Shown here piece by piece: positions 24,486 to 26,708 of a stretch of 36,059 bases of DNA (within the stretch, counting starts at the first letter, position 1; each line of letters opens with the position of its first letter). The notes under the pieces are model-generated. The model was not told where the DNA came from and searched no databases. It saw nothing but the letters and a program-made list of their open reading frames with translations. The DNA is from Minisyncoccota bacterium. Lineage in GTDB: Bacteria; Patescibacteriota; Minisyncoccia; Phycocordibacterales; UBA9973. The DNA is taken from contig JAGOPR010000002.1 of NCBI GenBank assembly GCA_017991895.1, positions 27,522 through 63,580 on the forward strand, read 5' to 3'. A program made the position numbers and the translations under genes.

Positions 24486-25481
24486 TCATACCGGTGTCGT
24501 TTTTGGTATTTCTTTGTCCTCGCCTGGCACTTCATCAAGAACGTGGGATCCATGTTCTTCTGAGTGCGAGCCATGGCCATCACCTTCTTCATGATCATGA
24601 TCCTGCGCCGCAATAGTGAAGTACACTGTTGTTAGAACAGCGAAAATAAATGCTTGAATTAGACCTACCCCAACCTCAAGGAGAAGAAATGGAATCGGAA
24701 CAAAATATGCGACCATTGCTCCCATCGAAGCAAGGAGAACCTCTCCAGCAAAAACGTTTCCAAAAAGACGAAGAGAGAGCGATGCAACTTTTGCCATTTC
24801 TCCTACAATTTCAATAAGACCAACTGCGAATGTAATCGGCGCGACAAGAATAATTGCAGGGTCTTTTCTAATTTTTGTAAAAATACCTCCGAGAGCCTTA
24901 AGGTTAATGTATTTATTCAACATTTTCCAACCACCAATGATAAATATTCCAAAAATATTTGAACCAAGTACCGCAATTACAGCGATTGCAATATTCGTAT
25001 TTAAATCTGCTGTTCCCGAACGAAGAAAAGGAATAAAAGTATTTCCATGCTCAACTACACCGAAAGCCATAAATGGCATGATACCGAGCCAATTATTTAT
25101 GAGTATGAAAAAGAAAACACATGATGCTATTGGAAGGACTTTTTCTGTAATTTTTCTATCATTTGTGATCTGGTCTCCGACAGAAAGGGCTCCTTCAATG
25201 AATATTTCAAATATGTGCTGAAGTTTTCCAGGAATTTTCTTTATGGACAAGCGAAGAGCAACAGCAATTACTATTATTATTAAAACAGCTGCCCAACTTG
25301 TAACTAGAGCGTTTGTAACACCAAAACTTCCGATATGAAAAACGGGCTCTGCATAAAGCGTCTGCTCATGCTTGAGGTCGTGACCGTCACTCGCCACTTC
25401 GTGCGGAACAGCAGTCAACGCCACATCGTGAGATGTTTCCTCATTTGCTTGTTCAGTATTATTTGTTTTCTGTATCTCCAT
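24486..25481 (-). CDS. atpB: F1Fo ATP synthase subunit a with His/Asp/Glu-rich tail
   Basis: The 331-residue membrane protein contains the essential stator arginine in SLSLRLFGNVFAGEVL and the usual final helices (EVGVGLIQAFIFAVLTTVYFTIA). Proton half-channels are formed with the c-ring. Both ends are extended: a polar, His/Glu-rich N-terminus of about 45 residues before the first helix, and a C-terminal tail of about 40 residues dominated by His, Asp, Glu and Gly (HDHEEGDGHGSHSEEHGSH). The tail is unusual for AtpB and could bind metal ions. The start overlaps the atpZ end by 23 bp. Confidence 0.96.
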   Translation of the reverse strand: MEIQKTNNTEQANEETSHDVALTAVPHEVASDGHDLKHEQTLYAEPVFHIGSFGVTNALVTSWAAVLIIIVIAVALRLSIKKIPGKLQHIFEIFIEGALSVGDQITNDRKITEKVLPIASCVFFFILINNWLGIMPFMAFGVVEHGNTFIPFLRSGTADLNTNIAIAVIAVLGSNIFGIFIIGGWKMLNKYINLKALGGIFTKIRKDPAIILVAPITFAVGLIEIVGEMAKVASLSLRLFGNVFAGEVLLASMGAMVAYFVPIPFLLLEVGVGLIQAFIFAVLTTVYFTIAAQDHDHEEGDGHGSHSEEHGSHVLDEVPGEDKEIPKTTPV

Positions 25482-25734
25482 TTGATTGTTTGGCCTTTAG
25501 GTCATCCACCTCCATTGATATTTGGTATTTCTTTGCTTCCTTAAATATGCCATAAGAAGAAATAAAGAATCCAACCCCGACAAAAATAAAAAACCATAAA
25601 TTTTCTGTACCCCTCTTTGCATCCATCCAGCGACCAAGAAATACGGCTAGGAGAATAGGTGTAGCCACCCAACCGGACATTCGTCCAAAGACCAGAAGTG
25701 CTTGTCGCCATACTTGTTTCTCTATAGCTGCCAT
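25459..25734 (-). CDS. atpZ: AtpZ/AtpI-type small membrane protein of the ATP synthase operon
   Basis: The product is 91 residues from the ATG at 25734, with a possible TTG start 12 nt earlier. Two membrane helices are linked by FLGRWMDAKRGTENLWF, which matches the GxxLGxWLDxxxGTxPW signature of the AtpZ/ATPase_gene1 family. Family members assist c-ring assembly or Mg2+ supply. It leads the operon, with a promoter 55 nt upstream. No Shine-Dalgarno sequence is visible. Confidence 0.87.
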   Translation of the reverse strand: MAAIEKQVWRQALLVFGRMSGWVATPILLAVFLGRWMDAKRGTENLWFFIFVGVGFFISSYGIFKEAKKYQISMEVDDLKAKQSNGDTENK

Positions 25735-25750
25735 ATATTTATGCAAAAAT

Positions 25751-25770
25751 GGTCAAACCTTAGTTTGGCC
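25751..25770 (-). promoter_or_regulatory. Leader hairpin of the ATP synthase operon
   Basis: GGTCAAAC/GTTTGGCC with a 4-nt loop, followed in the + direction by CCCC. On the transcript it sits between the start near 25782 and the atpZ ATG at 25734. Its role is unknown; it may stabilise the operon mRNA. Confidence 0.4.
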
Positions 25771-25788
25771 CCCCATAATTACGGTTCA

Positions 25789-25817
25789 ATTATACTGTAA
25801 TCATTTATTAAATACAA
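25789..25817 (-). promoter_or_regulatory. Promoter of the ATP synthase operon
   Basis: On the minus strand, TTGTAT (25817-25812), a 17-bp spacer and TATAAT (25794-25789). A start near 25782 gives a leader of about 48 nt to atpZ. It is back to back with the tRNA promoter. Confidence 0.65.
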
Positions 25818-25829
25818 ATCTGGAAAACT

Positions 25830-25857
25830 TTGAAAAAATGATGCATTCTGGTATAGT
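25830..25857 (+). promoter_or_regulatory. Promoter of the tRNA-Ile locus
   Basis: TTGAAA (25830-25835), a 16-bp spacer and TATAGT (25852-25857). The expected start near 25864 lies about 20 nt before the degenerate outer tRNA 5' end (25884), not next to the intact tRNA at 25979. Confidence 0.6.
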
Positions 25858-25882
25858 TTTATCCGTTGTATTTCGATACATT

Positions 25883-25922
25883 TGTGCTCGTAGTTCAGTG
25901 GTAGAACGAGTCCCTGATATGA
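25883..25922 (+). pseudogene. 5' half of a degenerate tRNA-Ile copy
   Basis: The first 26 bases (25883-25908, acceptor 5' strand, D-arm and following G) are identical to the intact tRNA-Ile beginning at 25978. The alignment continues ungapped to CCTGATA, including the GAT anticodon, with changes that break the anticodon stem. No matching 3' half follows directly; instead the large inverted repeat begins at 25928. Confidence 0.8.
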
Positions 25923-25927
25923 GTACA

Positions 25928-26097
25928 TATAAATGGTTCGCTCGTTTCAAATAAATAAGCCCCAATAGTTTTCTGTGTGTGCTCGTAGTTCAGTGGTAGA
26001 ACGCTGTCCTGATAAGACAGAGGTCGTAGGTTCGATTCCTACCGGGCACACACAGAACGGTATGGCTTATTTACTTAGAAACTCGTTGCCATTTATA
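25928..26097. repeat. Imperfect inverted repeat enclosing the intact tRNA-Ile
   Basis: TATAAATGG (25928-25936) pairs with CCATTTATA (26089-26097), GTTTC (25944-25948) with GAAAC (26078-26082), and TAAATAAGCC (25952-25961) with GGCTTATTTA (26064-26073). TTCTGTGTGTGCTCG (25971-25985) pairs with CGGGCACACACAGAA (26043-26057), extending the acceptor stem to 15 bp. All helices are nested and in register. Confidence 0.75.
25979..26050 (+). tRNA. tRNA-Ile (anticodon GAT)
   Basis: All four stems form. Acceptor GTGCTCG/CGGGCAC has two G-U-type pairs or fewer, D stem GTTC/GAAC, anticodon stem CTGTC/GACAG with loop CTGATAA (anticodon GAT), and T stem GTAGG/CCTAC with loop TTCGATT. The variable loop is AGGTC and the discriminator is A. 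CCA is not encoded; the following bases are CAC. The leader and trailer pair with each other to extend the acceptor helix by 8 bp. Confidence 0.95.
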
Positions 26098-26145
26098 AGA
26101 CAGATGTCGTAGGCTGACATTTTCTTGAATCGTAATCGATTCCTA
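26095..26145 (+). pseudogene. 3' part of a degenerate tRNA-Ile copy, with insertion in the T arm
   Basis: ATAAGACAGATGTCGTAGG (26095-26113) matches the intact tRNA (26012-26030) at 18 of 19 positions, covering the anticodon-loop end, anticodon stem, variable loop and T-stem 5' strand. After about 22 unrelated bases, TCGATTCCTA (26136-26145) resumes the T-loop and T-stem 3' strand. A further TTCGATTCCTA copy lies at 26169-26179. Confidence 0.7.
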
Positions 26146-26190
26146 GAAAACGGCGTCCCCTTGTGGGATTCGATTCCTATCCCTGTATAA

Positions 26191-26228
26191 ATCAAAAAAC
26201 CCACAGGCTATCCTGTGGGTTTTTTGAT
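26191..26228. terminator. Bidirectional terminator of the tRNA locus and the RRM gene
   Basis: A perfect 17-bp stem (26191-26207 with 26212-26228, core AACCCACAGG/CCTGTGGGTT) has a 4-nt loop and T/A runs on both sides. Confidence 0.9.
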
Positions 26229-26239
26229 ACTAGCCAATA

Positions 26240-26503
26240 TTAGAATCGGCGTGGTTCCTGAGGACGAGCCTCTGAAACAGTAAGTTTGCGTCCTTGAAAG
26301 TCCTGATTGTTGAACTTGTCGACTGCAGTCATCGCATCAGCATCGTTTGTCATTTCGACAAAACCGAAACCTTTTGAGCGACCTGTCATCTTATCCATGA
26401 TAATGACTGCTGAATCAACTTGACCAATCTGCTCAAAATGAGCTTTGAGGTCTGCATCTGTAGAAGAGTAAGGTACTCCTCCAACGTAAAGCTTCTTTGC
26501 CAT
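26240..26503 (-). CDS. RRM-domain RNA-binding protein
   Basis: The product is 87 residues from the ATG at 26503, a single RNA recognition motif. RNP2 is KLYVGGV and RNP1 is SKGFGFVEM, with intact aromatic positions. A short basic C-terminal tail (EARPQEPRRF) follows. Similar small RRM proteins in cyanobacteria and other bacteria are often cold-induced RNA chaperones; that role is only inferred here. A long spacer (26504-26708) to prfA contains a GCCCC-AAAA-GGGGC hairpin at 26630-26643 and no gene. Confidence 0.93.
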   Translation of the reverse strand: MAKKLYVGGVPYSSTDADLKAHFEQIGQVDSAVIIMDKMTGRSKGFGFVEMTNDADAMTAVDKFNNQDFQGRKLTVSEARPQEPRRF

Positions 26504-26708
26504 ACTATTGTCTGTGCGAAAATTGCGTCGCACTCGCGAAACCTATTAATCAGAAACCTCGATGGTCTCCGCGTAGAACGTTTGCACCGATATGGAGAAA
26601 CAAAACTACTGTATTAAGAATAGCACTTGGCCCCAAAAGGGGCAAGGACTATTCCTCGTCAGCATCACCTTTCTTCCCTTACAGGGACTGTACACCTTTC
26701 GCATTGGA

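Follow-up and report, generated by a model that had tools for sequence, protein, structure and literature searches.

Nested tRNA genes in Paceibacteria: a candidate protein-free insertion element carrying a replacement tRNA

How does an intact transfer RNA (tRNA) gene come to lie inside the anticodon loop of a second, broken copy of the same gene? This arrangement is found in a 36,059 nt stretch of contig JAGOPR010000002.1 from a Minisyncoccota bacterium (assembly GCA_017991895.1), hereafter the window, whose features are given on the + strand unless stated otherwise. As claimed in a first-pass annotation made from the letters alone, the window holds an intact tRNA-Ile(GAT) at 25979–26050 (ARAGORN; Rfam, 74.4 bits); it is the single tRNA gene of the window, and no other tRNA-Ile(GAT) was found in the genome, which is 93% complete. 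The gene sits at the tip of a 178 nt, rod-shaped hairpin (25918–26095), here called the rod, that interrupts an outer tRNA-Ile in the anticodon loop, between nucleotides 35 and 36. We consider it probable, at roughly 60%, that the rod is an insertion element without protein genes, which destroys the host tRNA and replaces it with the copy of the same isotype that it carries.

The outer tRNA is a broken copy, in an arrangement that recurs in relatives. Its 5′ half (nucleotides 1–35, 25884–25917) starts at G25884 and is identical to the inner copy over some 26 bases, after which the anticodon stem diverges (GAGTC versus CTGTC). The 3′ half, from nucleotide 36, starts at 26096 (TAAGACAGATGTCGTAGG, one mismatch; 26096–26113) and, past an insert in the T-arm (26114–26135), resumes at 26136 with TCGATTCCTA; an additional copy of TCGATTCCTA lies near 26168, and the two copies, with an insert between them, make up the T-arm remnants (26136–26181). 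The first-pass annotation had recognized both halves, the 26 shared bases and a break in the anticodon loop, and all of these hold.

The rod itself is non-coding. Directly after the left break, a tip hairpin (TATG-AGTA-CATA, 25918–25929) is followed by the left strand of a 7 bp basal stem (TAAATGG, 25930–25936), an internal-loop strand (TTCGCTCG, UUCRYUCG; 25937–25944), a left helix strand of variable length (25945–25970) and the leader strand (25971–25978). The leader pairs with the discriminator base and trailer strand (26050–26057) and lengthens the inner acceptor helix by 8 bp, to the 15 bp in total that had been noticed at first reading. On the other side follow the right helix strand, also variable in length (26058–26081), the second internal-loop strand (CTCGTTG, CUCRYUG; 26082–26088) and the right strand of the basal stem (CCATTTA, 26089–26095). 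The motif UUCRYUCG/CUCRYUG is located 7 bp from the right break and is conserved in the alignment described below and in further loci, in which rods measure ~150–190 nt. The fold of the complete unit is much more stable than the folds of its shuffles (z = −9.8, 0/100 as good).

In an alignment of 26 nested loci, an earlier version of which had eight sequences, 95% of the base-pair cells were paired, compared with 35–50% when the partner strand was slid, and pairs changed on both sides yet still paired were found at 8/9 positions of the basal helix and 11/15 of the extended acceptor helix. Because this alignment had been fitted to a covariance model, an independent second test used rod arms read by eye from the sequences of 31 rods. 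In 25 of these, every one of the 7 nt before the right break paired with the left arm (7/7), against a maximum of eight in 5000 permutations in which rod arms were swapped between loci. Likewise, 27/31 rods had ≥3 bp in a tip hairpin after the left break, with a mean of 3.9 bp versus 0.7 in shuffles. The basal pairing and the tip hairpin together mean that the joined ends of the insert form one continuous closed hairpin. Judging from these comparisons, the rod structure appears to be under selection.

The break point is the same, or nearly so, across genes for tRNA-Ile(GAU), tRNA-Ile(UAU) and tRNA-Lys. It lies between nucleotides 35 and 36 in tRNA-Ile(GAU), in tRNA-Lys(UUU) (loci L081 and L082) and in tRNA-Lys(CUU) (L084, where nucleotide 36 is altered); in the tRNA-Ile(UAU) genes (L088 and L089) a tRNA-less rod adjoins the inner tRNA in the opposite orientation. 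All of the target tRNAs read ANN codons (U36-A37). The rod of L082 is flanked by CTTT on the left and TAAGC on the right, that is, by the target with neither duplication nor loss, and GGTTCGCTCRTTRAAAATGAAAA is common to the left arms of Lys and Ile rods. Nests can also be concentric, with two different rods in L071 and L069 and near-identical rods in L084, and L067, L009 and L045 each have an additional rod that shares the ends but lacks a tRNA. All five tRNA-less rods seen adjoin a tRNA-carrying unit, and none of the loci showed a rod without a replacement tRNA inside a sole tRNA gene. Unequal crossing-over could copy identical rods, as in L084, but does not account for matched pairs of different rods.

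The locus was compared by BLAST with 100 relatives, and a covariance model of the hairpin, R1, then served for wider scans. BLAST returned further genomes in which both outer halves flank a leader, tRNA and trailer. Nested hairpins, including those in tRNA-Ile(UAU) and tRNA-Lys genes, are a recurrent feature. With R1, about 12 of the 147 genomes from the family of the window were nested, spread over seven genera, their scores (>118 bits) being distinct from those of plain tRNAs (~75–108 bits). The order sample contained 16 nested genomes out of 397, and 14/384 genomes matched in the class sample, where some weaker matches are plain tRNAs with partial structure (L083, L085, L086). Nested loci are thus patchy in Paceibacteria, with named records that include Nomurabacteria, Jorgensenbacteria and Liptonbacteria; close relatives of the window genome that share the nest are recorded under the names Candidatus Nomurabacteria and Paceibacterota. 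Since the nest recurs in many independent assemblies, chance and assembly error, the latter a doubt raised at first reading, are ruled out. Neighbouring genes vary among families (atpI, murD, rnhB, recG, 16S rRNA and others; translations by eye or Rfam). A DNA search of the window genome yielded a single locus; tandem or nested copies occur in other genomes. When rods around any tRNA were sought by pattern across the class, only the L080 locus, already found, was retrieved, and a search for the motif in the rest of the phylum returned nothing but unrelated matches. In 12 genomes without a match, a search for a split tRNA-Ile found no halves except a weak 24 nt match. Four genomes that are 94–100% complete (G044, G138, G015, G018) have no recognisable tRNA-Ile(GAT), either whole or halved.

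Comparison of the inner and outer tRNAs, and of nested and plain loci, bears on the history of the insert. The two tRNAs are 100% identical over the comparable part in seven loci (L045, L068, L074, L077, L078, L079, L080) and clearly different in L073 (80.7%) and L092 (74.6%), each value being lower than that to the inner tRNAs of other loci. Such divergence would be as expected for a foreign tRNA; in L073 either member of the pair may be the native one, the family of G220 comprising one genome. Many outer copies contain large D-loop and T-loop inserts and cannot be tRNAs. Several plain genomes (e.g., L049, L050, L052, L139, L144) keep a one-sided vestige, such as would be left if the inner and outer halves recombined. 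There are also plain sister loci with matching flanks: in the pair L008 and L141, the 477 nt upstream show 88% identity, and a similar short spacer precedes atpI. Given that plain and nested sister loci have common flanks, the outer tRNA occupies the place of the original gene. In L142, a plain tRNA-Ile has three tandem degraded outer 5′ halves upstream (TGTGTAGTTGTTGGTTTGAATGC...).

The first-pass annotation had offered three explanations, of which it favoured a tRNA-bearing mobile hairpin that inserted into an anticodon loop, and this appears to be the best fit to the comparative data: the fixed break, the covarying rod, double nesting, tRNA-less tandem rods, discordant tRNAs and plain sister loci would all follow from insertion. 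As we envisage it, a rod with a tRNA at one tip would insert at 35/36 of a resident same-isotype tRNA; the resident gene is broken, the carried tRNA would substitute for it, and the cell would survive and from then on depend on the element. The promoter of the old tRNA may drive read-through of the whole unit, no other promoter having been seen, and processing would then release the inner tRNA. RNase III may first trim the rod, because pairing between leader and 3′ end slows bacterial RNase P (PMC9433436). The outer halves decay and would gather further inserts, and recombination between outer and inner repeats would collapse the unit to a plain tRNA plus a vestige, of the kind found in plain genomes.

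Several observations weigh against an insertion element. Mobility is deduced from sequences, with no excision, circle or new insertion observed. Inner and outer tRNAs match in most loci, which is unexpected for a foreign tRNA unless gene conversion took place. The same damaged outer stem (GAGTC) is found across several genera of the family of the window, where the nested state looks old and often lost, and points to vertical inheritance. The GAGTC damage is common to the outer copies of L001, L007, L009, L010 and L011, in most of which the outer acceptor part tracks the inner tRNA of its own genome; this combination suggests an old insertion in the lineage whose first half was gene-converted. 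Finally, two scans of viral contigs gave no true rod, the single match (L180) lacking a tRNA and looking like chance, so that these scans revealed no vehicle for the rod.

Could the rod instead be a novel, tRNA-encoding type of bacterial tRNA intron, being excised so that the outer halves are joined while the inner tRNA is freed from it? The exact break in the anticodon loop and the closed hairpin formed by the joined ends would suit an intron, as would the complete outer tRNAs of L045, L068, L078, L079 and L080, which are 100% identical to the inner ones. However, many outer halves are unable to form a tRNA: anticodon stems are broken in L001, L007 and L011, nucleotide 36 is changed in L008, L013 and L084, and other halves bear the large D- and T-loop inserts. 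RtcB is missing from 36/37 genomes, no group I or II intron was matched in Rfam scans (E up to 1 and 0.5), and no sole tRNA gene was seen to contain a rod that lacked a replacement tRNA. The absence of RtcB, the decayed exons and the lack of solitary rods seem to speak against splicing as a requirement, although species with intact outer copies could still splice; we regard the intron as unlikely. Splicing by RtcB was rejected, this ligase being present in 1/37 genomes, and readings as group I intron, tmRNA or T-box were dropped for lack of a match or of matching anatomy.

A vertically inherited structural RNA, in which the rod and outer halves act as a processing scaffold controlling the maturation or amount of tRNA-Ile, had also been proposed at first reading. 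It gains from the strong covariation, from the known slowing of RNase P by leader/3′-end pairing (PMC9433436) and from the identity to the inner copy that the outer half in the window retains over its initial 26 nt; but most relatives lack the structure, its genomic neighbours differ, it is carried by different tRNA isotypes and the decay of many outer halves weakens the idea further. We consider it quite improbable. A shrunken prophage or island remnant with tRNA-dependent integration and a tRNA of its own seems very unlikely: phages that integrate in tRNA-Lys(UUU) and bring a replacement are known (PMC10865867), yet the unit has no integrase or phage gene, the two scans of viral contigs gave no true match and the rod is conserved across families, as remnants would not be. 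As for decayed tandem tRNA duplications, with inverted repeats arising by chance or recombination, the repeated tRNA halves are indeed near one another, and the window genome has many partial tRNA copies. This last suggestion of the first-pass annotation can nevertheless be set aside almost entirely in view of the fixed break, the shared and conserved motif, the covarying rods and the matched pairs of distinct rods in double nests; simple tandem duplication as a full account is refuted by the covariation together with a rod motif common to Ile and Lys genes.

The putative insertion element resembles several known systems in part; the closest are a tRNA intron of Lak phages, akin to it in anatomy, and tRNA-dependent lysogeny, which follows a like strategy. 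A tRNA-Thr intron of Lak phages may encode a tRNA (PMC6784885), so that there too a tRNA is predicted inside the interruption of another tRNA gene; that case, unlike the rod, concerns a phage genome and one tRNA only, with no rod or same-isotype replacement reported, and the outer tRNA was taken as intron-containing. In tRNA-dependent lysogeny, phages integrate in tRNA-Lys(UUU) and bring its replacement (PMC10865867); the insert likewise holds a same-isotype tRNA and tRNA-Lys(UUU) is a target in both, but lysogeny involves a large prophage, a tyrosine integrase and a core of ~10 bp, as opposed to ~150–190 nt and no protein. Archaeal tRNA introns transpose between tRNA genes (PMC10714607) and are also short structured inserts in several of them. 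They are, however, spliced by endonuclease and ligase, carry no tRNA and usually occupy site 37/38, as against the 35/36 break of the parsed loci, and RtcB was found in 1/37 genomes. Bacterial group I introns occur in tRNA anticodon loops; the rod shares a site in or near the anticodon, but it has no Rfam group I match, is too small for the core and contains a tRNA. REP and MITE-type elements (repetitive extragenic palindromes and miniature inverted-repeat transposable elements) are short non-coding palindromes, patchy and perhaps moved in trans; the rod is likewise short, non-coding, palindromic and patchy, might also be moved in trans, and differs in carrying an essential gene and in its fixed tRNA-gene target. 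The attC sites of integrons have a similar topology (7 bp helix, internal loop, variable tip), with no conservation of AAC/GTT by eye.

Because isotype identity, site, structure and the absence of RtcB set it apart from the Lak-phage and archaeal introns, and Rfam gave no credible non-tRNA match, the element seems not to have been described before, and its strategy has known parallels, judged against the open-access literature only. A circle is a likely, if putative, intermediate, as the two joined rod ends give a perfect closed hairpin. We put forward only tentatively, as a possibility that may well prove wrong, a new class of protein-free elements that would move as closed, viroid-like rods (RNA or single-stranded DNA circles), insert at 35/36 of anticodon loops and become indispensable through the carried tRNA. 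If so, a piece of ~180 nt without a protein gene would take the place of an essential gene and be hard to lose, perhaps the smallest known addiction by gene replacement, and the question arises of how a structured non-coding rod finds nucleotides 35/36 of ANN-reading tRNAs. For annotation, it should be borne in mind that Paceibacteria can have nested, even doubly nested, tRNA genes.

Around the unit, the likely promoter of the whole (25830–25857; TTGAAA-16-TATAGT, with TG before the −10) had been singled out at first reading. As a consensus match it is weak alone, with three matches in the window versus 2.7 expected, which is chance frequency; similar TGNTATANT or TGnTATAnT sequences do, however, precede the outer half in relatives. 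The terminator proposed at 26191–26228 (not assigned to a strand), between the unit and a convergent RRM gene, is a perfect 17 bp inverted repeat with T/A tracts, despite which a terminator scan of the window reported none. On the opposite strand, Rfam gave a sub-threshold match to Plastid-ycf2, which is due to the tRNA. The tRNA unit is divergent from atpI in the window (25459–26533), whereas most relatives have it upstream of, and co-oriented with, atpI; the differing orientation is probably a local inversion or rearrangement.

Other inserts are associated with tRNA genes in these genomes. Palindromic inserts occur in the D-loop of broken or extra tRNA copies from different families (L009, L010, L045, L066, L073, L085), often as CCCCGACG...AGCCGAC...GTCGGCT set between TTCAG and TGGTA, and these would constitute a second, D-loop-specific type of insert. 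The outer halves of L010, L038, L077 and L088, from unrelated genomes, harbour a longer insert, mostly in the T-arm, that contains AAGGCCGGAGNGCGACGGCNCGAGGC or slight variants of it. In the window genome (L161, L171, L160; contigs C8 and C27 of G000), palindromes are found 3′ of tRNA-Phe, tRNA-Glu and tRNA-Gln, and consist of inverted and direct copies of the 3′ part of each gene with TCGAAAGACTTTTC...AGCGTACTCGC-like inserts; upstream of tRNA-Phe there are, in addition, two 5′ fragments in tandem. Lastly, an open reading frame in L076 (1–493) resembles by eye a LAGLIDADG homing endonuclease (YIAGFIDGEGSF) and lies ~1 kb upstream of a nested tRNA-Ile.
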